NCBI GenBank assembly: GCA_937141935.1
Contig: CAKZQS010000046.1
Span: 99,181 to 163,180, forward strand
Source: an uncultured Ectothiorhodospiraceae bacterium
Lineage (GTDB): Bacteria > Pseudomonadota > Gammaproteobacteria > Nevskiales > Oceanococcaceae
Direction of reading: 5' to 3'
Length of the DNA stretch: 64,000 nucleotides
The translations under genes and the position numbers were made by a program. Positions 108-18,673 of the stretch are shown here, in pieces (the first letter of the stretch is position 1; each line of letters opens with the position of its first letter). The notes beneath the pieces were generated by a model, which saw nothing but the letters and a program-made list of their open reading frames with translations, had not been told where the DNA came from and did no database searches.

Positions 108-2849
108 ATGCGCGGCAGTCCCACTGCGGCTGCCCATACCGACGAGCCTCGGCGCCGCCAGCGGCGCAGGCGCAGTGCGTTGCTAGGTCGTCGCACAACC
201 GCCGGCCTGGGTTTGCTGGGCGCGGCGCTGCTGCTTGCGCTCTTGTTGACGGCGGCCCACGGCCAGCGGCTGCTGGCCCTGCCCAATGCCTGGCTACTGG
301 AACAGCTGCAAAGCCTGGGGGGAACCCCGGCGCGGCAACACCCGGTGGCCGTGGTCAAGCTGCCGCCGCTTGCGGTGCTGCGCGATGAGGTGCGCTGGCA
401 GGCCCTGGTCGATGCGCTGCAGGCGCAGGGCGCGCGCCGCATCGTGCTGACGGCGCTGCCGGCGCAGCCCGCCGTGCTGGCCGCGCTCGCCCGGGAGCCG
501 ACCCTGCTCTTCGCCGTCAACACCGAGGCGCAATACGCGGCGCTGCTCGCCGCCGGTGTGGGCGCCGGCCAGATCGTCAGCAACCGCACCCCGGAGAGCA
601 CCGGCGCCTATGTGCGCAGCCAGCGCGGCCGCCCGCCACGCGCGGCGATGCCCCCCACGCTGGAGCGCAGGCTGGCGGGCGATTACGCCCCCGACATCGC
701 CCTGCCCCGCAGCGGCGCGTTCCCGATCCGCTACGGACGTCGCGCGGCGGGCATCGCCCTGCTTCGCGGCAGCCGCGTGCTCGCTGGCGACGCCGCACCG
801 GTCGCCGGCCGCATCGTACTGGTCGGCCGCGACCTGCTGCCGGATGAGCCCGGCTACTACGTCTCCCCCGACCCCGAACGACCGCGGCCGCTGGTCGAAA
901 TCCAGGCGCATGTCGTCGATGCGCTGCTCAACGAGCGGGTGCTGCGCCCGCTGGGCGGCCTGCCCACAATGCTGCTGCTGGTCGCCGTGTGCTTGCTGAC
1001 GCTGTGGCTGTTCCCGCGACTGGGCGTGCTCTTTGCCAGCGCCGCCACCGCGGCGCACATGCTGCTGTGGGTGTTGCTGGCCACGCTGCTGATCTTCGCC
1101 GCCGGGCTATGGCTGCCCCTGGTGGAAATCCTGCTCGCCCAGGCCACGATGCTCGCTCTGGTTGTCAGCGCCATCGTCCGCCGGGAAGAGCGCACGCTGG
1201 GCGAAATCCTGCACGACCTGGGTACGCGGCTGGAGTCGCGCCTGCGCCCCACGCTGAGCCGCAGCGAACAGGAGCGCTGGAGCGCCATCAGTTCGCTGAC
1301 CCGCCAGCTGCTGACGCTGAACCGGCAAATGTTCCTGGTGCCCGTCTCCGCCAGCCACCTGCGCGCGGTGCACGCGGACAACTGCCGTTTTGAGCAGATC
1401 GTCGAGCCACGACGCGACTACCGGCGTGCGCCTTATAGCGAGGCGCTGGAGGTGGGCGGCCTGTACGCGGTGCAACGCGAATTCCTGCCGCGCGAGCCGG
1501 ATGATGTGCAGTATCTGCTGCCGCTGGAGTTTGCCGGCCAGTTGCGCGGCTACTGGATGTTCAGCGTGCCGGAATCGGTGGCGGCGCAAACCACGCTGCT
1601 GGCCACCACCGCCGAGGAACTGGCCCGCCGGCTCAGCGAATACCTCTATCACGCCGCGCCGGCACCGCCGCGCGGTCTGGGCCCCTGGCTGGCCCGCCTG
1701 TTCGACCCGCGCTCGACGCGGGCGATCTACCAGCGGCTGCGCGAATCGCTGCTGAGCATGGACCAGCGCATGCAGCTGCGCGACCGGGCCAGCGCCAGCC
1801 TGATGTCCGCCTATTGGGTTTTTGATGGCTTCGGCCACCTGCAACTGCTCAATCGCGCCGCCGAGAGCCTGGCCCGCAAGCAGGAGATCCCGGCCTTTGA
1901 GCTCGACGCGCACGGCCTGCTGCAGCGCCTGCTGGGCGGCCGCATGGAACTGGCGCGCCAGGTGCTGGACCGAGCGCTGATCGAGCAAACCGCCTCGGTG
2001 CTGCCGCTGGCACCGCCGGGCGAGGTCGGCCTGCATGTCTTGCACGTGACGCCACTGGCCGGCGGCGCGGAGCGCGAGGATCGTGCCGAGCAGGCGGTGC
2101 TCGGCGGGCTGCTGGTCGAAGTCATCGACCATGGCGACTCCTGGCGCCTGTGGCAACGCAATGCCGAGCTGCTGTCCAGCCTGGCCCAGAACGTCGCCCG
2201 CCACGGCGAGCGGGTGCTGGCCCAGGCGCAGGCCCTGCCGCAGGACGACGGCAGCCGCGAGGATCTGCAGATCCTGCTGCCCGAGCTGCGCGAACTGGCG
2301 CTGGCCCTGAAAAACGAAAGCGCCGTGGGCGAATGGAGCGGCGGCCGGCTGGCACCGCTGGATCTTGGCGCCCTGCTGCGCGAGGTGGCCACCGAGCGCC
2401 GCCACCGGCTGCGCCGCCGGGCGCTCACCCTGCTGCTGCCGCGCTTCGCCGAGCCGGTCTTCGTCCTGGCGGAGCCGGCGCTGCTGACCGAAGGTCTGGG
2501 CCTGCTGCTGGATCTGTTGATCGACGATGCCCAGGACGACTCGACGATCCGCGTCGCCCCCTATTGCCGGCTGCGCGAACAGGGCATGGCGCTGGGGCTG
2601 TGCCTGGATGACGAGGGCGTGGGCATGGACCCCGAGCGCCTGCAGGAGGCCCTGCAGGGCGTGCTGCACGCCGGGGATGATGCCGCCTTGGCCCGCCTGC
2701 ACACACTGCGCCGCCAGCTGGAGCGCGCCGAGGCCGAGCTCGAGGCCGAAGCGGCGCTGGGCCTGGGGCTGCGCTTCGACCTCAGCCTGCGCCTGATGAC
2801 CACCCGCCTGCTCGAAGCGCGCTTCGAGTCCTGGCCGGAGCCCGACTAG
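108..2849 (+). CDS. CHASE2-domain membrane sensor with degenerate histidine-kinase-like C-terminus
   Basis: A 913-residue membrane protein and the first gene of a six-gene run. A basic N-terminus leads into one membrane helix (about 33-50). An extracytoplasmic region of about 230 residues follows, organised like a CHASE2 sensor, and then a block of about three hydrophobic helices (about 282-360), as CHASE2 proteins have. The cytoplasmic part has a PAS-like stretch near 560-610 (YWVFDGFGHLQLLNRA) and ends in a region resembling a GHKL ATPase, with a G1-like DDEGVGM at 834-840. I see no H-box, and the N-box asparagine is not evident (GLLLDLLIDDA). It may therefore be a pseudokinase or a scaffold rather than a working kinase. 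The next gene starts 3 bp after its stop, which suggests it senses for, or is built into, the polymer system downstream. The ATG at 108 is taken as start. Fold assignment is moderate; function is inferred. Confidence 0.75.
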   Translation: MRGSPTAAAHTDEPRRRQRRRRSALLGRRTTAGLGLLGAALLLALLLTAAHGQRLLALPNAWLLEQLQSLGGTPARQHPVAVVKLPPLAVLRDEVRWQALVDALQAQGARRIVLTALPAQPAVLAALAREPTLLFAVNTEAQYAALLAAGVGAGQIVSNRTPESTGAYVRSQRGRPPRAAMPPTLERRLAGDYAPDIALPRSGAFPIRYGRRAAGIALLRGSRVLAGDAAPVAGRIVLVGRDLLPDEPGYYVSPDPERPRPLVEIQAHVVDALLNERVLRPLGGLPTMLLLVAVCLLTLWLFPRLGVLFASAATAAHMLLWVLLATLLIFAAGLWLPLVEILLAQATMLALVVSAIVRREERTLGEILHDLGTRLESRLRPTLSRSEQERWSAISSLTRQLLTLNRQMFLVPVSASHLRAVHADNCRFEQIVEPRRDYRRAPYSEALEVGGLYAVQREFLPREPDDVQYLLPLEFAGQLRGYWMFSVPESVAAQTTLLATTAEELARRLSEYLYHAAPAPPRGLGPWLARLFDPRSTRAIYQRLRESLLSMDQRMQLRDRASASLMSAYWVFDGFGHLQLLNRAAESLARKQEIPAFELDAHGLLQRLLGGRMELARQVLDRALIEQTASVLPLAPPGEVGLHVLHVTPLAGGAEREDRAEQAVLGGLLVEVIDHGDSWRLWQRNAELLSSLAQNVARHGERVLAQAQALPQDDGSREDLQILLPELRELALALKNESAVGEWSGGRLAPLDLGALLREVATERRHRLRRRALTLLLPRFAEPVFVLAEPALLTEGLGLLLDLLIDDAQDDSTIRVAPYCRLREQGMALGLCLDDEGVGMDPERLQEALQGVLHAGDDAALARLHTLRRQLERAEAELEAEAALGLGLRFDLSLRLMTTRLLEARFESWPEPD

Positions 2850-2852
2850 CTC

Positions 2853-5800
2853 ATGGAAGGGCTGCTGCTGCCGATCTTCCCCGACGGCAGCCTGGCCAGC
2901 TCGGTGGTGACGACCGTCTGGGTGGGCGTGTTCATCGTCGTCTTCTTCAACCTGCGCCTGGGCTGGGTGATGTCCGGCCTGGTGGTGCCGGGTTATCTGG
3001 CGCCCATCGTGCTGCTCAAGCCCTGGAGCGCCGCGGTCATCGTCTTCGAGGCGGCCGTCACCTACCTGATCGTCTATCTGGCCTCGGAGAAGCTCTCGCG
3101 GACGGGGCTGTGGTCCAGCTTTTTTGGCCGCGACCGCTTCTTTGCGCTGATCCTGACCGCCGTCGGCGTGCGCGTGCTCTTCGATGGCTTTCTGCTGCCC
3201 GGCCTGGTGGCCTGGCTGGAAACGCAGGGCGCCGGCGACATCGCCTGGCGCAACGACCTGCAATCCTTCGGCCTGGTGATCCTGGCGCTGATCGCCAACA
3301 TGTTCTGGAAGCCCGGGCTGTGGCGCGGCTTGCGGGCGCTGGCGGTGATCCTGGGCCTGACCGTGCTGATCACGCGTTACGTGCTGATGGAGTACACCAA
3401 CTTCGCCCTCAGCAACATCGGCTACATGTATGAGGACGTGGCGCAGTCGCTGCTGGCCAGCCCCAAGTCCTACATCATCCTGCTCACCGCGGCCTTCATC
3501 GCCTCGCGCATGAACCTGCGCTATGGCTGGGATTTCAACGGCATACTGCTGCCCTCGCTGTTGGCGCTGCAGTGGTACCAGCCCAGCAAGATCGCCTTCA
3601 CGCTGGTCGAGGCCGCCGTCATCGTCACGCTGGCCCGCCTGCTGCTGCGCAGCCCCTGGCTGGCCAATGCCAACATCGAGGGCTCGCGCAAGCTGCTGTT
3701 GCTGTTCAACATCAGTTTCGCCTATCGCTTCGTGCTGGCCTGGGTGCTGGCGCTGTTCGCGCCCGAGTACAAGATCAGCGACGCCTACGGCTATGGCTAC
3801 TTGCTGGCCACGCTGATCGCCCTGCGCATCTTCGACAAGGGCAAGCCGCTGACCATCGTCGGCAGCACCCTGCAGGCTTCGCTGGCCGCGGTGCTGCTGG
3901 CCAGCGTCATCGGCTTTGGCCTGCAGTTTGGCGGCCCACTGACGCAGACGGCCACCCTGGCGGCCCGGCCGCTCAGCCCGCGGCTCGCCGCCGACCCCGG
4001 CCCGCTGGACGAGAGGCTGCGTGCCGACAAGCCACAGCTCTACGCCATCCGCAGCCAGCGCCGCCTGAGCCTGCCCGGGGTCAGCGAGCAGCGCGCCTTT
4101 CGCGAGGCCATCGGCCTGCTGGACGGGCCCGATGCGCTCGACCCCGGCACCTTGCAGGCCGCCAGCCTGATGGCTGCACGTGCCGGCTACGAGCTGTTGG
4201 TGGTGGACGGGCGCTGGCTGTACCTGCGCGAGATCGAGCCCGCGCGCGGCTGGGGCATCTTCGTCATCGATACGCAGGCGCCCAGCCCGCTGGCCCTGGT
4301 CTGGCCGACCGGCGCCGACCATCGCGAGGGCCTGGACCTGGCGCTGGCCAGCCTGAAACTGCTGCCGGCGCGATACTTCGCCTATGCCACGGCGCCTTCG
4401 CGGCTGAACCCGGACGGCAGCGCCAGCGCGCTGCAGCAGCCGGCCGCCCTGCTCAACATTTTCCAGGACAGCGTGGCCAGTGGTGAGTTGCTGCAGGTGC
4501 GGGTGCTGGATGCCACGCTGCAGGCCCGCCTGCAGCGCGAGCGCGGCGTGGGCAGCGAGGACCGCAACCCGCCGAGCAGCCTGTGGGTGGATGGCCACCT
4601 GCCAGCCGCCCTGCCGCTGCGTCGGTTGCAGCAGGTGCTGCCGGGGCTGCAGACCTACTGGGATGCGCCGCCCTACGCCAACCCCCAGCGCGGCCAGGCG
4701 CGCGACGGCTTTGCCGAGCTGCTGCTCAGCCGCGCCGCCTTCCGCCGCTTCCTCGGTGCCAGCATCGGCGGCGGCGAGGTGGCGGCGCTGAGCACGGCGC
4801 AACGGGTCGAGGGTTTCCTGGCGCAGTGGCTGTTCGCGCCCGAAGAGCGCTTCGCGGCGCGCGGCAGCGGCAACTACAGCGCACCCAGTCTGGAGGAACT
4901 GCTCTATGCCGAAGAGGAGCTGCTGCGGCCGCTGCTGGAGCTGGCGCCCAGCGCGCAGGCGCGGGAATCCGAGGCGCTGGACCGGCTGGACGCCGTGGCC
5001 CAGTCGCTGGGCTACCGCATCACGCGGCTGCAGCAGGTGGCCAGCGGCGAGCATTACCTGATTCTGTCGGAGCCCCCGGGCAGCCGCCGCCACTGGGGCC
5101 TGCTGAGCCTGCGCACCGGCCCGGCCAGCGACGTGCTGCTGCAGGTGCCGCGGCCGCTCTCGGAGGCGGGCAGCGCCGAGTTCGCGATCAGCCTGTTTGA
5201 AGACATGCAGGCCCGGGGCCTGTTCGTCAGTACCGCGCACCCGCGCGCCGCCGTCGACGGCAGCGCCGACCCCATGCTGCCGGCCGGCCGGCAGTCGCTG
5301 TTCAACCTGAGCGCGGAGACCTTCCTGCGCACGCGGGCCGATCGCCCCGCCCTGTTGCTGCACGTGCGTGGCAAGGGCGTCGCGCCCGAGCTCTACGAGG
5401 ATCTGGGCGGCGCGCCCAGCGAGGCCCTGGTGGTCGCCGACCGGCAACCCCCGGGCCCGCTCGCGCGAGCGGTCCACGCGGCGCTGGATGATTATGGGAT
5501 CGAGCACGTCGACGCCTACAGCGCCGCGGATGCGGCCAGCCTGGGGGTCGACTCCAGCCTCCAGGCGCGGGTGGCGCAGCCCTTCCCGCAGGCGGAGTTC
5601 GTGGCGCTGCGCCTGTCGCCATCCACGCGCGCCGCCTTCCGCCGCTCGACCAGCAACCGGGTGGAGCTGATGCACTTCCAGGCGCTGGACATCCCGTCGC
5701 AGGACATCCCGCTGCGCGACTACCTGGCCGGCCGTGGCTTGCGCGGGGGCGCGCCGGTGCCCCCCGAACTGGCCGGGGCGCTGGCCGACTACCAGCTGCG

Positions 5801-6050
5801 GCCGGATATCGTGGCGCTGGAGCGCGCGCGGCGCGCCGTGCCGGGCTATCGTTTCCTGCGTATCGCCGACCCGCGCAGCGTGCAAACCTTCCTCGTTGTG
5901 CAGGGCCCGGAGGGGCGTTTGGGCGGCGTGTGGAACCTGAACCCGCTGCGCCAGCGCGGCGGCGAGATCGTATCCCTGAGCGCGCTCGATGCCCCGCGGA
6001 TCGAGCGCTTCACGGATCGGGGGGAGCCGTGGCTACGATTCGACCCGTAG
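2853..6050 (+). CDS. Tandem PgsC/CapC-like membrane protein fused to two diverged PghP-like domains
   Basis: A 1065-residue protein. Residues 1-370 are strongly hydrophobic and match the PgsC/CapC subunit of poly-gamma-glutamate synthase, including GLVVPGYLAP at 42-51, GRDRFFALI at 92-100 and LIANMFWKPGL near 145. A second copy of the pattern follows about 185 residues later (GILLPSLLA at 230, GSRKLLLLFN at 277, GYLLATLIALRIFDKG at 315 with GSTLQ after it). Two PgsC-like modules therefore appear fused. The remaining 700 residues are soluble and probably extracytoplasmic. Two stretches (about 446-635 and 720-930) align by eye with the PghP-like product of the gene at 8496, but the histidine of its APH motif is lost (QVPR at 764-767) and the LHGY motif is not kept. 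They look like pseudo-hydrolase, polymer-binding domains. B. subtilis PgsC is only about 150 residues long. The gene starts 3 bp after its upstream neighbour. Confidence 0.8.
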   Translation: MEGLLLPIFPDGSLASSVVTTVWVGVFIVVFFNLRLGWVMSGLVVPGYLAPIVLLKPWSAAVIVFEAAVTYLIVYLASEKLSRTGLWSSFFGRDRFFALILTAVGVRVLFDGFLLPGLVAWLETQGAGDIAWRNDLQSFGLVILALIANMFWKPGLWRGLRALAVILGLTVLITRYVLMEYTNFALSNIGYMYEDVAQSLLASPKSYIILLTAAFIASRMNLRYGWDFNGILLPSLLALQWYQPSKIAFTLVEAAVIVTLARLLLRSPWLANANIEGSRKLLLLFNISFAYRFVLAWVLALFAPEYKISDAYGYGYLLATLIALRIFDKGKPLTIVGSTLQASLAAVLLASVIGFGLQFGGPLTQTATLAARPLSPRLAADPGPLDERLRADKPQLYAIRSQRRLSLPGVSEQRAFREAIGLLDGPDALDPGTLQAASLMAARAGYELLVVDGRWLYLREIEPARGWGIFVIDTQAPSPLALVWPTGADHREGLDLALASLKLLPARYFAYATAPSRLNPDGSASALQQPAALLNIFQDSVASGELLQVRVLDATLQARLQRERGVGSEDRNPPSSLWVDGHLPAALPLRRLQQVLPGLQTYWDAPPYANPQRGQARDGFAELLLSRAAFRRFLGASIGGGEVAALSTAQRVEGFLAQWLFAPEERFAARGSGNYSAPSLEELLYAEEELLRPLLELAPSAQARESEALDRLDAVAQSLGYRITRLQQVASGEHYLILSEPPGSRRHWGLLSLRTGPASDVLLQVPRPLSEAGSAEFAISLFEDMQARGLFVSTAHPRAAVDGSADPMLPAGRQSLFNLSAETFLRTRADRPALLLHVRGKGVAPELYEDLGGAPSEALVVADRQPPGPLARAVHAALDDYGIEHVDAYSAADAASLGVDSSLQARVAQPFPQAEFVALRLSPSTRAAFRRSTSNRVELMHFQALDIPSQDIPLRDYLAGRGLRGGAPVPPELAGALADYQLRPDIVALERARRAVPGYRFLRIADPRSVQTFLVVQGPEGRLGGVWNLNPLRQRGGEIVSLSALDAPRIERFTDRGEPWLRFDP

Positions 6051-8512
6051 ACCGCAAGCCGCGGGTGCAGCGCGCGGCGCTGCTGGCGGCTCTGCTGCTG
6101 CTTGGCCTGGCGCTGATCTATGGGCCGCGCCTGCTCGATATCGTCACGCAGCGGCTGCAGACCACCGAGCCGAACACCCGCAGCCTGCTCAGCTACCGCC
6201 TGGACGGCGAACGCTGGACCACCTTCGACGTCGACCCGCCAGACGGCCAGGTCCGCCTGCGCAGCAGCGCGCTGCTGCCAGCGGCGGCGATCGAGGCCGA
6301 GCCGGGCACCCTGGACCTGCGCTACGCCCTGGAGTACGAGATTCTCGACGCGCTGGGCCGGGTGCTCGCGGGCCAGCCGGCCTACTTCGAAGCCAGCCTG
6401 CCGCTGCAGCAGGGCGCCGGGGGCCAGCCCGAGGCACGGCTGCGGGTGCCGGGCGCCGAGCCGCGCGTCGCCGCCTCCTCGCAGGCGCTGGTGCTGGACC
6501 TGCGGCCCTGGCCGCAGGCCGACCAGATTCGCCTGCGGCTGCGCGAGGCCGCCGCGCCCCTGAGCGGCGTGGTTGTCGGCGTGTACGTGCACGAGCGCAT
6601 TGGCCCGCGTGCGGCGCTGCGCGAGTGGCTGCGGCGCAGCTTCGGCCAGCGCGAGCAGCTTGCCGACCCGCTGGTGTACCCACCCGGCCTGCTCGACCGC
6701 GAGGACCGCGTGCGGCTGATCGCCAACGACTGGCGTGCCGTGGGCCCGCTGGGCGTCGAGGGACGCGACTATGCGGTCGAGCGCATCCTGTACGACCGCG
6801 ATGCCGTGGCCTGGCAGCCACCGATCCTGCCCGCAGGCCTGTTTCTGGATGCCACGCGCGCCGCCGTGCTGCCGGTCGGCCCGGGCCCGCAACGGCGGCA
6901 GCTGCACCTGGTGGCCGCCGATGGTGCGACCGGCGGCGAGGCCACCCTGTTCTTCAGCTGGCGCGGCGCGCAGCCCTGGCAGCAGGACACGGAGACACTG
7001 CGCGTCGCGCTGCCGGCGATCCTCGAGCGCGAGCTGCGGCCGGGCTGGTTTCTGGCCCGCGCCGATCGCCCGCTCACGCTGCGCAGCTACGACCTCAACG
7101 GGCTGGAGATCACGCCGGAGAAACGCTACAGCCGGCTCTACCGCCTGGGGCCCGGGCAGGCGCTTGACTACCCGCTGCGCCACCACGCCGGCGACCCGGC
7201 GCCGCTGCGCATCGACCTGCGCCGCAGCCTGACCGAGCGAGCCGCCGGCATCGACGTCAAACTGGACGTGCGCTACGAACTCTACGACGAGGCCGAGCGC
7301 CTGCTCGACGCCGGCACATTGCCCGGCCGGGCGCCCCCGATCGACCCCTACGACTATCCCAACGACAACCCGATCGGCCACTACGTGTCCATGCCGGCGC
7401 AGCACTATCTGCTGGCCGACCCGCGGGTGCGGCGCCTGCGCCTGCTGGCGGACGGCGAGCGCCTGGCCGGCGTTTTCACCCGGCCGGCGGGCCTGCGCCA
7501 CCGGACCCGCGTCCCGCAGGACTACCAGCCCTGGCTCGACCCCAGCGACGAGGGCGGGCAGAACATCTGGTTCGGGCTGAGCCCGGAGCACCCGGCGGAC
7601 CTGCGCCGCGCGCCGGGTGTCTCCAAGCTGCTGCGCGTGCAGGCCGCGCCGCCTGAGCGCGACCCGCTGCTGGCGGAGGGGAGTTACCAGTGGGCCTCCA
7701 TCGAGCCCGCGGGCGATTGGAGCGGGCGCTGGCTCTTCGAGCCCCGCGATCCGGCGCAACCCACGCGGCCCCAGGCGCGCGCCAGCGTATTCAGCCCGCT
7801 CGCCGTCGGCACGCCGCTGCGCCCGCAACTGGTCAGCCCGGCCGCCGGCGGGCTGGTCCGTGCGCAGGTCTACGCCGAAGCCAGCCAGGCCGGGCTGCTG
7901 CAAATCCAGGTCAACGGCCAGAGCCTGCCGCCGCGGCCGTTGGCCGTCGGCGCGCAGCTCCACCCGCTGCCGCCGTTGCCGCCGGGGCCGCAGGCCCTGA
8001 CGCTGCAGGCGCCGCCGGGCCGCTACTGGCTGAACCAGTGGCAGGATGCGCCGGGCAGCCTGCTGCGGCGGCTGGTGGCGCGCCTGCCGGCCGATACCGG
8101 CGGCGCCGCGGGGCTGCGTTATCTGCTGCCGCGACCGCAGGAGGCGCAGACGCTTTCGGGCCGCCTGTACCGCCGGCCGAACAGCCCGCCCGTGCGCCTG
8201 AGCGTTCGCGTCGAACCCGCCACGCGGCCGCGTAACCAGCCGCTGCCCAGCTGGACCGTGGCCGACCGCGAGTTCCACTTTCCCAGCCCGCCCGCTGACC
8301 GCGTTCACGTGCCCGGGCACAATCCTGCCGAGATGGCCGCGGGGGAGGCCTTCTTCATTCCCCTGGGGCCCGACCTGGAGACCGACATGCTCGCCATCGA
8401 GATCCGCCTGCACGGAGCGCCCGAAGCCCTGCTGGGCCTGAGCCGGCTGGAGGCCGGCCTGGCCGAAGAGCTTCGGACCCGCCGCGACCGCCCCGATGAT
8501 GCGCCGCGCTAG
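6029..8512 (+). CDS. Membrane-anchored beta-rich envelope protein of the polyglutamate-like operon
   Basis: I do not recognise this 827-residue protein. The GTG at 6029 is chosen as start because it overlaps the end of the upstream gene by 22 bp and places one hydrophobic helix (about residues 15-35) at the N-terminus, after a short basic segment, as expected for a signal anchor. The rest has no obvious membrane helix. It is rich in short alternating hydrophobic and polar stretches, Pro and Arg, which suggests several beta-sandwich domains in the periplasm. Its 3' end overlaps the next gene by 17 bp, so it should be co-translated with the PgsC-like, PghP-like, barrel and PgsB-like proteins. 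By position it could be a periplasmic scaffold or polymer guide, in place of the missing PgsA/CapA. No catalytic motif was seen. The role is inference only. Confidence 0.7.
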   Translation: MATIRPVDRKPRVQRAALLAALLLLGLALIYGPRLLDIVTQRLQTTEPNTRSLLSYRLDGERWTTFDVDPPDGQVRLRSSALLPAAAIEAEPGTLDLRYALEYEILDALGRVLAGQPAYFEASLPLQQGAGGQPEARLRVPGAEPRVAASSQALVLDLRPWPQADQIRLRLREAAAPLSGVVVGVYVHERIGPRAALREWLRRSFGQREQLADPLVYPPGLLDREDRVRLIANDWRAVGPLGVEGRDYAVERILYDRDAVAWQPPILPAGLFLDATRAAVLPVGPGPQRRQLHLVAADGATGGEATLFFSWRGAQPWQQDTETLRVALPAILERELRPGWFLARADRPLTLRSYDLNGLEITPEKRYSRLYRLGPGQALDYPLRHHAGDPAPLRIDLRRSLTERAAGIDVKLDVRYELYDEAERLLDAGTLPGRAPPIDPYDYPNDNPIGHYVSMPAQHYLLADPRVRRLRLLADGERLAGVFTRPAGLRHRTRVPQDYQPWLDPSDEGGQNIWFGLSPEHPADLRRAPGVSKLLRVQAAPPERDPLLAEGSYQWASIEPAGDWSGRWLFEPRDPAQPTRPQARASVFSPLAVGTPLRPQLVSPAAGGLVRAQVYAEASQAGLLQIQVNGQSLPPRPLAVGAQLHPLPPLPPGPQALTLQAPPGRYWLNQWQDAPGSLLRRLVARLPADTGGAAGLRYLLPRPQEAQTLSGRLYRRPNSPPVRLSVRVEPATRPRNQPLPSWTVADREFHFPSPPADRVHVPGHNPAEMAAGEAFFIPLGPDLETDMLAIEIRLHGAPEALLGLSRLEAGLAEELRTRRDRPDDAPR

Positions 8513-9407
8513 TGGCGCCGCGGCCCGACGGGGGCGCGAGGTGGCCGTGCTCGGCCTCGCCGGTGGCCTGTTGCTGGCCCCCGTGCTGAAGGCCGCGCCC
8601 TGCCCCGAGGCCGACCTGGAAACGCTGTGGCGCGCATCCAAGGTGGCGCAGCACCGTGCGCCGGAGCCGGCCGAGGTCGCCCGCTCGCAGGCGCTGTTTG
8701 AGCGGGAGTTCGCCAGTGTCGCGCTGCCTACCGCGCAGGAGTGGGCCGAGGCGGGCTTCACCCTGCTGTCGGGCTGTGCCGACGGCCACCACCTGCGCGT
8801 GCTGCGCGACGCGCAGGACGCGGGCCAGGGCTTTTATGTCTTCAACCCCACGCCGCGGCGCAATGTCGTGATCCAGGCCCCGCATCGGGATTCCGACCTG
8901 CGCAGCGGCGAGATCGCCCTGCGCCTGTTCGTCGAGGGCGGCCTGCGCGCCGGCGCCTGGAATACCGTGCATCGGCGCGGGCCCGAGCGGCAGAGCCTGG
9001 ACACCGACCTCGCCCACGTGCAGCGCAGCCATTTCCAGGCGCTGACGGCGGCGCTGGCCCGCGAGGCCCCGGAGGCGCGACTGCTGCAGCTGCATGGCTA
9101 CGCCCAGCAGCGGCGGCGCAGCGCGGCCGGCCGCGCCTCGCAGCTGATCCTGTCGGCGGGCCGGCGCGAAGTCAGCGCCGCGGCCGCCGACCTGCACGCC
9201 TGCCTGGTGCGGCGTTTCGGCACCCAGGCGCTGCTCTACCCCACCCAGGTGCAGGAGCTGGGCGGCACGACCAATGCGCAGAGCCGGCTGCTCCAGGCCC
9301 AAGGCCACGGCGGCTTTTTGCACCTGGAGTTGTCGCGGCCGCTGCGCGAGGAGCTGGTGGAGTCCCCGCCGCGCCGTCGCCATCTGCTCGAGTGCCTGGA
9401 TGGCTGA
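8496..9407 (+). CDS. Secreted PghP-like gamma-polyglutamate hydrolase family protein
   Basis: A 303-residue exported protein. After two Met codons and a basic segment comes a signal peptide (about 15-33, cleavage near KAA-PC). The mature part resembles phage PghP zinc hydrolases that cut poly-gamma-glutamate: VVIQAPH with His130, GEIAL with Glu139, LLQLHGY with His200, then the late pattern GGTTNAQSR and HLELS (Glu278) before a basic LRxEL helix. In PghP the metal ligands are two His and one Glu in the corresponding blocks; here the first ligand pair is spaced differently, so activity should be treated as likely, not certain. It lies inside the operon, overlapping its neighbours by 17 and 8 bp. 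That fits release or trimming of a glutamate polymer made by the PgsB/PgsC-like proteins, the job done by CapD or PgsS elsewhere. The more distant alternative is another zinc amidohydrolase with the same fold. Confidence 0.68.
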   Translation: MMRRASGAAARRGREVAVLGLAGGLLLAPVLKAAPCPEADLETLWRASKVAQHRAPEPAEVARSQALFEREFASVALPTAQEWAEAGFTLLSGCADGHHLRVLRDAQDAGQGFYVFNPTPRRNVVIQAPHRDSDLRSGEIALRLFVEGGLRAGAWNTVHRRGPERQSLDTDLAHVQRSHFQALTAALAREAPEARLLQLHGYAQQRRRSAAGRASQLILSAGRREVSAAAADLHACLVRRFGTQALLYPTQVQELGGTTNAQSRLLQAQGHGGFLHLELSRPLREELVESPPRRRHLLECLDG

Positions 9408-12400
9408 GGCCACGCGTCCGAGCGGCGGCCGCCGGGCCGCCGGGCAGCGGGTCCGGCGGCTGGCCGGGCTGCTGACCCGGCTGCTGGCGCTCTCCGCCTG
9501 TGGCCTGGCCCATGGCGCCAACCCCTGGACCCGGGTGGCGCTGGACGATGCCTACCTCGAGCCCTACCCCGAGCCCTGGATCTGGGAAGACGCGCGGGCA
9601 CAGCCCTGGCTGCTGGGCCCCTTGCACGATGAGTCGGGCCAGCTGCGCGGGCAGCGCCTGCAACTGCCGGCTGGCGCGTGGCTGCGCGTCCACGCGCCGG
9701 AGGGCGGCTGTGGCCTGCCCTTGCGCGTGCTGCGCGGCGGCGTCGAGGGTCTGTGGGTCGAACAGCGTGGTCGCTGCAGCGACCATGGCCAGGCGCTGCT
9801 GTTTGACGACCCGGTGCATGCGCTGCGCGAGCTGCGCCTGAGGCACCGCGACGGCGCCTGGCCGCGGGACTGGCGGGTCGAAGTCGGCCACGCGCTTGGC
9901 CGCGGCAATGCGGCGCCGGCCCGGCAGGCGCTGCCGGCACAGGGCGAGCGCGTCCACCTGCGTCACCCCGGGGGCCGGCATGAATGGCCCCTGCGCCTGG
10001 GTCCGGCGCACCAGGGTGAACTCCAGGTACGGGGTCCGGCGCGCCTGGAGCTGCAAAACCGCGCGCTGGTGGCCTCGGAGATTTCCGACTGGACACTGCA
10101 GGTCGAACGCCTTGCGGACAGCCGCGAAGGGCGGCGCTACGAGCAGCGCAGCCTGCGCCTGAGCGCCGGCGCCGCCCGACAGCGGCGCTATTCGGTGGAC
10201 GGGCAGTGGCAACCGCTGTCCTCGGCCGCCGTGCGCTGGCTGGACGTGCCGCCCGGTGAGCACCGGCTGCGCTTCGCCAGCAGCCGCGACAGCCTGCTGC
10301 AGATCTATGCCTTGCAACCTTCGGACTGGTTGCTGCCGGGGTTCAACGCCCCCGAGCCCGCGCCGGCCGCGCTGCTGGGCCCGGTGCGCCAGGGCCGCGC
10401 GCCGCTGGCCGCGGCGCACCTGGCTCGCGTCGGCCGCGCGCTGGATCTGTTGGACGACGGCCACAGCCTGGCCGCCGCGCAGGTGCTGGCGGCGCCCATC
10501 AGCGAAGCCGCCGCCTCGGCCTCCCATGCCCTGGCCCGGCAGATCGATGCCCGCCACGCCTACTGGACGGCGCTGCACCCGCGAATGCGCAGCGGCGGCC
10601 GCGAGAACTACGCCCTGACCGGCCTGCTGCCTCGACCGACGCGCTGGGAGCACCGCCGCCGCGACGCCACGCACCCGGTGCAGTTGCGGGCCTGGGCAGA
10701 CAGCCTGCCGGAGTTGCTGATGAGCCGACCGGTGCCGCTGTGCGGCGGCAATGTGCGCTGCGCGGACGGCGGCACCCCGGGCCATGGCGCCCTGATCTGG
10801 AACCTGCCGCCACAAAGCCGCCCCGGTCGCATCGAACTGCTGGCCGATCTGCCCGACGAGGGTCCCGAGCCTCTGCACTTCTGGCTGCAGCAGGGCGAGG
10901 AGCCGCCGCGCCTGCTCCGTCTCGAGCGGCCCGCGCGCGCCGACTGGTCGCATCAGCAGCCGCTGCTGGGCATCCTGCATGCGGCCTGGGACGACGCCCA
11001 CCAGGGCGCGAGCCGGCCCGTCCGGCCCGATCCGCGGCCACCGCTGCGGCCGCTGGCCCGCATCGAACTGCCGCTGCGCGCGCAGGGCGATACCTTGCGC
11101 CTGTGGAGCGTCCAGCCCGGCAGCCGGTCGATCGGCTGGGCCCTGCGCTACCGCGCCGAGCGCGACTTCCGGCTGGCCCCGCAAGATCTGCGTGCGCGCA
11201 TCGCCGCACGCGGTGGTGGGCTGGACCTGCTGCTCGCCACGCCGCCCCGCGCCGCCAGCGCCGGGACGGCCACCGGCGAGGCCCGGCCCCGCGCCGAAGA
11301 CGCCGACCTGTATCAGCACCTGGCGCCGCTGCGCCGGCGCATCCAGGCACGAGCCGCGGCCTGGCAAGCGGCCGTAGGCCCCGCGCCGACTGGCGGTCGC
11401 GCGGGCGACCCGGCCCAGGCCCGCGCGGCGCTGGATCGCGGCGACGCGCTTGGCGCCCTGGAGCGCCTGGGGGATGCCTGGGCCTACCCTGATCGCGCGA
11501 CGCGCCTGCAGGCCGCGCGGCTGCGCGACGCCGCGCTGCAGGCCGCCGGTGAGCCGGCGCTGCGCCGGCATTTCCTGCAGGCGCTGACTGTGCACGGCGA
11601 TGCGCCGGCGGCGGCCTGGGCGACGCAGACGCTCGAGGCGCTGTATCGGCAAAGCGGCAACGCCATCGCGTTGCAGCGCCTGCAGGCCCATCGCCTGCTG
11701 CACCGGCCCGGCGCCCAGGCGCGCCACGCCGCCGCACTCGCGGACGCGCTTGCGCTGGGCGGCGCGATGGAGGACGCCACACTCTTGCGCCTCAGCGCCG
11801 GCCTGCCTGCGCGACCTCCCACGCAGGCCGTGGGCGGCTGGCAGGCGCGGCTCGCGCTGGCCACGGCGCACGCCGGCGTCATCGACGCACGGGCCGACAG
11901 CAGTGACGCGCTGACCCGCGGCCTGCGTGCACTGCCCGAGCAGGCGGTCGTGCTCCAGGTCGAGGGGCCGCAGCAGCTGCGCCTCGAGCTGCGCGCGCTG
12001 GCCTTCGACGCGGCCCGCAGCCCGGCCACGATGCTGCACATGGCGCGCAACGGCGAGCCCTACCGTCTGCCTCTGGCGGAGCGTCCGCTCAGCACCGGGC
12101 TGCGGCCGGAGAACGCGCCGGGACGCCTGGCCGTTGCGACCCACAGCGACCTGTCCTTGGGCCCGGGCCGGCACAGCCTGACCCTGCGGCCCGAGTCGGG
12201 CGAAGTCTATGTCCGCCCGCTGCTGTGGCAGGGCGATGCCCCGGCGCCGCCGCTGCAAAACCCACCGGCGCGCCGCGGCGGCACGGGAGCCAGGGCGCGC
12301 CTGGTCGCGGCCGTTCAGGATTTCGCGGCCGAGCCCGCCCTGGACGCGGCCATCCGTGCCGAGTTGGCCTATGCGGATCTCGCCAGCACCGGTGACAGCG

Positions 12401-14188
12401 AGGAGCCCGGCCGCTGGATGCAACTCGTGCGCGAAGCCACCCGGTGGCGCGGGGTGGACCTGGTTGAGGCCAGCGCCGGGCTCCGCCGGGAGCGCGTTTC
12501 CGGGCCCAGCTCGCCGCTGCAACGGGTGCGCCACGCACTGCTCGGTGCCACGCCGGAGGGCGCGGAGCTGCTGGCGCCGGGCGAACGGCTCTGGCTGGCC
12601 CCGCGCCTGTTGCAGCCGCAAACGCTGAGCGTGCACCTGCGTCTGCGTGACCTGCCCTACAACGTCCCGGTTCCGGCGAGCGCCACGCTGCGCGTCAACG
12701 GCGAGCCGATGCGGCGCTTCGCCGTGGGCGCGGCGCCGCACAGCGAACGCATTGCGCTGTTGCCGGGCGAGCACCGCATCAGCCTGCACTTCGACGAGGC
12801 CTACGCGCAGCAGCTGCTCGAGGTGCGGGTCGACAGCCCTGTGCCCTGGCGCCAGGAGCCCGGCCTGGACCTGCGCCACTGGCACTGGGCGACCGCGGCC
12901 GAGCCCATCCTGCTGACCCTGGAGGGGCCGGCGCTGCTGCGCATCCAGCGGCAGGGCGCGAGCCAGCCCGAGCTGCGGCATTACGCGGCCGGCCGCCAGC
13001 AACTGCAGCTGCAACCCGCCCCCGGCGCCCGTCGCAGCGCCTACCGCATCGAAGGTCTGGAGCTGCGCGCCGTGCCCCGGCCCTGGGCGCCGCCACGACG
13101 ACCGCCCGATCCGCCGGCCTATCCCGACTGGGACAGCCTGCGGCTTGCACAGGCACCCGCCGTGCCGCTGCAGCGCCCGCCCGTCCCGGACAGCGCGGGG
13201 GGCACCTGGACGCTGGACCTGCGTGGGGTGGACCGCCAGCTGGGCGCCGACGAGCCCTCCGACAGCGCCCAGCCGAATCGCTTTGTCGAGGCGGCGCTGC
13301 GCTACCGCCGGCTGCGCGTGCGCGATCGCGTCTGGCTGCGCGCCGACCTGCTGCACCGGCAGCAGGAGCTCGGCGAACCGACCTGGGGCCTGGGGCTGCG
13401 CGGCGAATGGCACCCGGACGACAGCCCCTGGTCGAGCCGCCTGCGCCTGAACGGGCTGTGGCAGCAGCAGCCGCTCAGCGCCGCCTGGCTGGGCGAGGCG
13501 GTCTTTGACCAGGACTACCGCTGGGACTTCGCCCGTCGCCAGGACCTGCGCTGGCGCGGCAGCCTGTTCGGTCGCCGCGTGCGTGCGCCCGAGCCGGCGC
13601 GGCCGCTACAGACCGTCGATGCCGATGTCTACACGCCCTACAAGGAAGACCACCGCTATGGCTGGCGCAGCGAGCTGCAATACGTCCATGCGCCCTGGCG
13701 GGACACCCGCTGGCGCGCCACCCTGGGTGCGAACAGCAATGAGAAGCTGGACGTGGACCATGGTCGCGCCGGGCTGAGCTGGGATCAGTTGCTGGGCCCC
13801 GTGGCCGCGCGCCTCGACGCGCGCTACCGGCTGTACCTGGCCGACGACGACCGCCGCAAGCGCAGTGAGCGCACCAACTTCGGCCTGGAGCTGGACTGGC
13901 AGCTCTGGCTGCAGCGGCGCCAGCGCCTGAGCCTGCGCGTGGATGGCGACTACGAGCTCGAGCGCGGCCGCTGGTCCTGGCAGCTCGGCCTGCGCTGGGA
14001 CTGGCACGACGGCCGCCGCCTGCGCGACTACCCACCGGGCAGCCCCCGATTCGCCGAACTGCGCCGCCTGCACGCGGCGGGCCGGCTCGCCCCCGGCGCG
14101 CTGCGGCACGGCCACGAGGTGGCTGACGATGGCGCCAGCCATGGCGCCGGCGATGACCAGCGCGACGGGGATGACCAGGGCGACGGCC

Positions 14189-14196
<8 letters not shown>
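9400..14196 (+). CDS. Large export protein: periplasmic helical repeats plus putative C-terminal outer-membrane barrel
   Basis: A 1598-residue protein. The ATG at 9400 sits in an 8-bp overlap (ATGGCTGA) with the upstream stop and gives a usable signal sequence ending near AHG-AN. An LSAC motif just before could alternatively be a lipobox. Beta-rich segments occupy about 40-650, an Ala/Leu-rich helical segment resembling TPR-type repeats lies near 690-820, and more beta-rich domains follow. The last 300 residues have alternating aromatic, charged and hydrophobic strands with Arg/Trp/Tyr girdles (WRSELQYV, WRATLGAN, LRVDGDYEL, WSWQLGLRWDW), typical of an outer-membrane barrel. Helical repeats plus a barrel is the plan of polysaccharide exporters such as BcsC and PgaA, so this is probably the outer-membrane exit for the polymer. 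The tail after the last strand is acidic and Gly/Asp-rich, which is unusual. Not recognised as a named family; the role is inferred. Confidence 0.72.
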
Positions 14197-18307
<4,111 letters not shown>

Positions 18308-18322
18308 GCCGCCACCGCTGGC

Positions 18323-18673
18323 TCAGCGCGCGCCCTTCGCCGCCTGCCAGCGCTGCGCCCACGCCGCCAGCGGCTGGTAGATCTGCAGCAGCTCAGCCGC
18401 CAAAGGCGTCAGCGTGTAACCGCCGGCCGGGTCCCGCACCACCAGGCCCTCCTCGCCGAGCCGTTTCAGGCGGCGGTTCAGCACCGTGGGCGACACGCCG
18501 CCGCAGGCCTGCTGCAGCGCCCGGAAGGTCAGCGGCGCGCCGCGCAGCTCCCAGATGATGCGCATGGTCCACTTGCTGCTGAGCAGCTCGACGATTTCGG
18601 CCAGGGCCGGGCGGGTCGGCGCCGGCGTGGTCCCCGGCTTGGGCAGGTCTGCGGACGACGAGGGCATGGGCAC
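18323..18673 (-). CDS. HxlR-family winged-helix transcriptional regulator
   Basis: A 116-residue regulator. The HxlR signature is visible: a short Pro-rich leader, then LLSSKWTMRIIWELRGAPLTF, a recognition region with SPTVLNRRLKRLGEEGLV, and a wing with a YTLTPLA motif. This family binds inverted repeats as dimers and often controls a divergent oxidoreductase or detoxification gene. Two starts are possible: GTG at 18673 and ATG at 18667. It is divergent from the carboxymuconolactone-decarboxylase-like gene at 18739. The 65-bp gap holds repeated GCTAC/GTAGC half-sites, so it very likely represses that gene and itself. The ligand is unknown. Confidence 0.88.
   Translation of the reverse strand: MPMPSSSADLPKPGTTPAPTRPALAEIVELLSSKWTMRIIWELRGAPLTFRALQQACGGVSPTVLNRRLKRLGEEGLVVRDPAGGYTLTPLAAELLQIYQPLAAWAQRWQAAKGAR

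Follow-up and report, generated by a model that had tools for sequence, protein, structure and literature searches.

The window analyzed here is a stretch of 64,000 nucleotides from an uncultured Ectothiorhodospiraceae bacterium (assembly GCA_937141935.1, contig CAKZQS010000046.1), in which six plus-strand open reading frames (ORFs), here called genes A to F, occupy positions 108-18307, with a gap of 3 bp between A and B followed by overlaps of 22, 17, 8 and 8 bp. All of these ORFs and junctions, as listed in a first-pass annotation made from the sequence letters, were found. We conclude that this operon likely makes, exports and trims a gamma-linked glutamate-type polymer. It is likely a synthase-dependent secretion system, for which we infer the substrate, the export step and the trimming. 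Somewhat less firmly, we lean towards regarding it as a distinct amide-polymer secretion system, in which inactivated hydrolase copies fused to PgsC replace CapA/PgsA, with a live copy kept and a dedicated barrel provided. Neither such an operon as a whole nor, within one, a barrel for export, a hydrolase or a fusion with pseudo-hydrolase domains was found described in the open-licence papers of PubMed Central (PMC) that we searched, a result that agrees with the earlier statement that no described system is known to have these parts and by which absence from print is not established.

Ligase, hydrolase and PgsC-type proteins

The product of gene F matched the NCBIfam model for PgsB (TIGR04012) with E 2.3e-57 and 194.5 bits, under the curated cut-off of 222.7, and judged by its sequence it is a PgsB relative, not a certified equivalog. 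The P-loop GGWGTRGKSG is intact in all 11 rows of the F alignment (A3, made without L032, L033, L035, L036, which is contained in L002, and L037), so that loss of the ligase site was not seen and the clear PgsB/CapB core of the first-pass annotation was upheld. Core motifs beyond the P-loop are shared by F with a short PgsB relative. Ahead of its one predicted membrane helix, F has 667 residues (14189-16190); PgsB likewise has a single hydrophobic helix just before its core. In three copies of the operon, all from one genus (g389), an ORF of ≈460 codons follows F (L034:9663-11054 and, on the reverse strand, L035:3934-5325 and L033:5009-6385).

Gene D had been annotated as encoding a PghP-like secreted hydrolase. 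The Pfam family for PghP (PF05908) gave no match to D, and 3 of 36 members of the D alignment (A6, which takes 35 of 45 homologues) matched it weakly, with a best E of 0.066. Profile comparison aligned D to poly-gamma-glutamate hydrolases at the zinc ligands H130, D134 and H200 and at the catalytic E278, together with three (His, Asn and Arg) of the eight reported side-chain contacts; the Thr79/Ser80 pair of PghL did not align. These roles as zinc ligands, catalytic Glu and polyglutamate contacts are those given in the available part of PMC6506827. The predicted model of D resembled PghP, PghL and formylglutamate amidohydrolase. The annotation as a PghP-like hydrolase was thus borne out for the fold, the zinc ligands and the catalytic Glu, with some of the contact positions aligned and others not, and from its hydrophobic N-terminus the protein is probably exported. 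Control comparisons of D with the C, E and F profiles gave E values of 0.29-0.61, and searches of PDB sequences using the D and B profiles gave nothing meaningful. D-like proteins were also seen in genomes having neither a long F nor a long B (G180, G198, G226, G232, G255 and G343).

For gene B, the Pfam family CapC (PF14102) matched in two stretches (E 4.1e-39, 134.1 bits, gathering score 27), in agreement with its earlier description as a PgsC/CapC-type membrane protein; the score against NCBIfam PgsC (TIGR04011) was 65.8 bits, under the curated cut-off of 96.45. The two CapC copies also aligned with each other using hhalign (E 1.3e-4, 53.7%). Two D-like domains can now be added to that description. 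Comparison of B with D profiles gave an alignment over residues 671-939 of B (E 5.1e-19, 99.1%), the two domains matched each other with E 1.3e-19, and searching the six class-sample operon genomes with the D profile returned, in each of them, D itself and two places within B. No match was found when the B domains were compared directly with PghP, and the link between B and PghP runs only through D.

At the predicted active-site positions of D, both domains of B have diverged. All seven B proteins have Arg in place of H200 in both domains; in place of H130, domain 2 has Arg (7/7) and domain 1 has T, A, K, D or S. The acidic ligand D134 corresponds to Glu in 13 of the 14 copies (Glu in domain 2), E278 is replaced by Trp or Arg in domain 2 and is unaligned in domain 1, and R284 is retained in domain 2. 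As both His residues are lost, the B domains look unable to bind zinc in the manner of D, and the two domains look like diverged, inactivated copies of that enzyme. Such inactive-looking hydrolase domains, carried on the PgsC subunit, probably guide the chain, and their fusion points to a way in which an enzyme of polymer degradation may turn into a handling module of the synthase.

The PgsB- and PgsC-type proteins fix the type of chemistry rather than the substrate, and the polymer could be an amide other than poly-gamma-glutamate, built from another amino acid or consisting of a gamma-glutamyl chain on a carrier. That alternative, agreeing with the scores of F and B under the curated PgsB and PgsC cut-offs, with the lack of the Thr79/Ser80 recognition pair in the D of the window and with a D fold that formylglutamate amidohydrolase fits equally, has perhaps one chance in a handful of being right. 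D, however, retains three positions (His, Asn and Arg) through which PghL makes contact with polyglutamate, and PgsB-, PgsC- and PghP-like parts come together in one operon, which argues for a glutamate-type polymer.

Occurrence and gene order in other genomes

The operon is not a product of chance, since the same genes were found in the same order elsewhere, among proteobacteria only distantly related to each other, at ≈23-44% identity. All six genes, A-B-C-D-E-F, are unbroken on contigs of the window's genome and of five others (G121, G136, G364, G202 and G549), G202 and G549 having in addition a response regulator between A and B. In G202, both A and C were too diverged for tblastn; A was recognized by weak CHASE2 and HATPase matches, and C by its place and by alignment. 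Eight further genomes carry the operon in part. G357 has it on two contigs (A-D and E-F), as does G470 (the end of A, then B-F, with the contig ending within F), L003, in the part retrieved, has B-F with E as two ORFs, L001 has B-C-E-F without D, G557 and G593 have E-F only, and G628 and G466 have only F, at a contig end. The alignments of B, C, D and E omit loci where the gene is cut, split or absent, as well as L063.

Among order-level kin, F was found solely in the window's own genome (1/61, own included). A class-wide sample gave F matches (E<=0.001) in 12 of 369 genomes, six being long F proteins (own included), five short PgsB relatives and one a short, weak C-terminal match; a phylum-wide sample gave matches in 7 of 398 genomes, own included, the other six all with long F. 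Named records with F came from three metagenome-assembled genomes, one each of Gammaproteobacteria, Mariprofundaceae and Methylococcaceae (of 15 pattern matches, three loci were confirmed). That from Mariprofundaceae is the contig of G466, with a sequence that contains that of L036, and because these two are one, the other genomes or records number 13 in all. The distribution is sporadic, a pattern that horizontal transfer or repeated loss would be expected to leave. Long B and long F were found in the same six genomes of the class samples, with two other B matches being partial; the samples for the F and B searches comprised 369 genomes each and are presumed to be the same draw. D occurred in those six genomes and in six further genomes of the class sample. 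Co-occurrence of the genes in other genomes, which the first-pass annotation had proposed as a check, is thus seen both in the five other unbroken contigs and in the coincidence of long B with long F. Neither a lack of such co-occurrence, nor a lost ligase site, nor a C-terminus of E other than a barrel, which that annotation had named as refuting outcomes, was seen, and its interpretation is supported.

In the class that holds G549, which to judge by the family of that genome is Zetaproteobacteria, F was found in 5 of 78 genomes, G549 included. Sheath genes of Zetaproteobacteria are described as unknown in the available part of PMC10734525. A zetaproteobacterial sheath or stalk system, suggested by the copies in that class, was rejected as a general explanation, with so few genomes of that class carrying F and with the published stalk cluster, as far as its available description goes, built from other families.

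The gene order also bears on whether the locus could be an ordinary CapBC-type polyglutamate capsule locus, having E, C and D as unrelated passengers. In the published capsule model nothing beyond CapB and CapC is mandatory, according to the available part of PMC5542703, where such loci are reported in most phyla. The same neighbors in the same order in distant genomes, and the D-like domains within B itself, make this explanation improbable. As for CapA/PgsA, the family PF09587 gave no match in the window's genome; in the 12 operon genomes searched, with L001 and L003 outside that search and several assemblies broken, it gave five matches in four genomes, all off the operon contigs, in line with the remark of the first annotation that PgsA/CapA was not visible.

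Envelope proteins, sensor and feature coordinates

Gene E had been taken to encode an exporter of the helical-repeat barrel type. Structure prediction gave a confident 14-strand barrel at the C-terminus, structurally closest to the porins CymA and OmpG and then to PelB, BcsC and PgaA. The barrel thereby stood, whereas no helical or TPR repeats were found in the window's E by the Pfam scan, HEAT-like repeats being located instead in F; of the homologues, that in L037 has a weak TPR match and none was reported for L001. Inside/outside alternation of the strands provides weak evidence only, because no shuffled control was used and the inward side was picked as the less hydrophobic one. Homologues of E are also present in the myxobacterium Sorangium (P0054-P0060) and in Vreelandella massiliensis, a cultured species, and the E alignment (A7) was made without P0001 and P0051. 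In L003 (L003:4226-9756) E is split into two ORFs, of which the second, barrel-bearing one begins with a lipoprotein-like signal, hinting that the split marks the junction between two working parts of the exporter. SPOR domains lie inside both of the E homologues scanned (L001:4125-9740 and L037:7342-12960), and the window's E has none.

SPOR domains bind peptidoglycan and PgsB is a relative of Mur ligases, which would suit a role of the operon in cell-wall or lipid modification, where F, as a Mur-like ligase, would act on an acceptor in the envelope and E would serve as an envelope anchor instead of an exporter. With a CapC partner and a PghP-like hydrolase pointing to a free gamma-linked chain, and E ending in a whole predicted barrel, we consider this slightly less probable still than a capsule locus with passengers. 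A defense system was considered and rejected, none of the proteins submitted to PADLOC (A, B, C, D and F) having given a match.

C, conserved within the operon, has one hydrophobic N-terminal segment and shares no convincing common domain with E (20.6% probability); no Pfam or NCBIfam family scored above its cut-off for C, D or E. In A, a CHASE2 domain was recognized at residues 95-297 (E 1e-6, 29 bits, cut-off 26.3), followed by a kinase-like end that Pfam did not recognize (no HATPase match). HATPase matches in A homologues were weak in L041 and L037 and lacking in L018 and L062, and the kinase part is missing from L018/L019. The CHASE2 sensor noted earlier over the operon is retained, with a kinase part that is weak or missing. 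A stands upstream of B in all seven other genomes readable there, G470 showing its kinase-like end only. In G202, G470 and G549 a single-domain response regulator separates A from B (L041:13409-13777, L037:379-738 and L062:8052-8453, that of G549 having been read by eye), which suggests a phosphorelay in these copies. Downstream of the operon, the translation of a short ORF on the minus strand (18323-18673) reads like an HxlR-type regulator.

Table 1. Positions of the operon genes and their domains in the window
Feature	Positions	Strand	Remarks
Gene A	108-2849	+	CHASE2 membrane sensor; degenerate histidine-kinase-like C-terminus
Gene B	2853-6050	+	two CapC/PgsC units and two pseudo-hydrolase domains
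CapC/PgsC copy 1 of B	2922-3329	+	residues 24-159; CapC match
CapC/PgsC-like copy 2 of B	3486-3857	+	residues ≈212-335; second CapC stretch
Pseudo-hydrolase domain 1 of B	4047-4529	+	residues ≈399-559, C-terminal part unaligned; aligned to D by hhalign with E 3.2e-17
Pseudo-hydrolase domain 2 of B	4863-5669	+	residues 671-939; hhalign to D, E 5.1e-19 and 5.4e-21
Gene C	6029-8512	+	GTG start; one N-terminal membrane anchor, without known family; possibly a periplasmic scaffold
Gene D	8496-9407	+	PghP-like zinc hydrolase; hydrophobic N-terminus
Gene E	9400-14196	+	large envelope protein; C-terminal predicted outer-membrane barrel
14-strand beta-barrel domain of E	13204-14004	+	
Gene F	14189-18307	+	HEAT-like domain, one membrane helix, PgsB ligase core, C-terminal extension
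HEAT-like repeats of F (approximate)	14924-15268	+	profile match to alphaRep chains, best E 2.9e-9
Membrane helix of F (predicted)	16190-16261	+	residues 668-691, directly before the ligase core; hydropathy
PgsB ligase core of F	16283-17248	+	residues 699-1020; TIGR04012 match
Ligase P-loop GGWGTRGKSG	16307-16336	+	identical in 11/11 rows of the F alignment

Proposed mechanism and comparison with known systems

In the polymer secretion system that we favor, F would be anchored in the inner membrane, where it would activate the growing chain using ATP and add amino acids, and the doubled PgsC part of B would hand the chain on into the periplasm. There, both dead hydrolase domains of B may grip the nascent chain without cutting it, in place of the CapA/PgsA of Bacillus. 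C and the long N-terminal region of E would span the periplasm, the barrel of E would form the exit across the outer membrane, D could clear stray chain or set chain length, and A may tune the activity via a signal sensed by its CHASE2 domain. Most of what is known of polyglutamate synthesis comes from Gram-positive bacteria, in which the chain need not pass a second membrane, and no account of how a Gram-negative producer exports polyglutamate was found in the PMC papers searched. The operon supplies candidate parts for each step of such export, and the question is now directly testable.

The synthesis genes in themselves are not new to Gram-negatives, because polyglutamate capsule loci with CapB and CapC have already been reported in most phyla, according to the available part of PMC5542703. 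The polyglutamate capsule group of CapsuleFinder described there shares with the present operon the CapB and CapC types, which are mandatory in that group; the components named in that part of the paper are CapA-E and PgsS, with no barrel, PghP-like protein or fusion among them. D agrees with the PghP/PghL (YndL) hydrolases of PF05908 in its fold, in its zinc ligands and catalytic Glu, and at three contact positions, and it differs from them in falling below Pfam detection, in its hydrophobic N-terminus and in lacking the Thr/Ser recognition pair. The sfz stalk cluster of Zetaproteobacteria is likewise a six-gene envelope polymer cluster, from a class in which some members also carry the present operon, but the proteins described for it in the available part of PMC8250860 are of the BcsB-like, GT2, glycosyl hydrolase and CotH types.

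BcsABC, PgaABCD and Pel follow a similar plan, with an inner-membrane synthase, periplasmic parts and a large outer-membrane protein with a terminal barrel, which the barrel of E matched in fold. The operon would differ from them in producing a ligase-made amide chain, which we infer, rather than a sugar chain made by a glycosyltransferase; its barrel is also nearer to 14-strand porins, and no common family was found. The PgsBCA/CapBCA(DE) systems of Bacillus, finally, share with the operon a PgsB ligase core and its PgsC membrane partner. Compared with these, no CapA/PgsA was found on the operon contigs in the 12 genomes searched, PgsB is here extended by a HEAT-like domain, PgsC is doubled and fused to two pseudo-hydrolase domains, and a barrel and a hydrolase are added.
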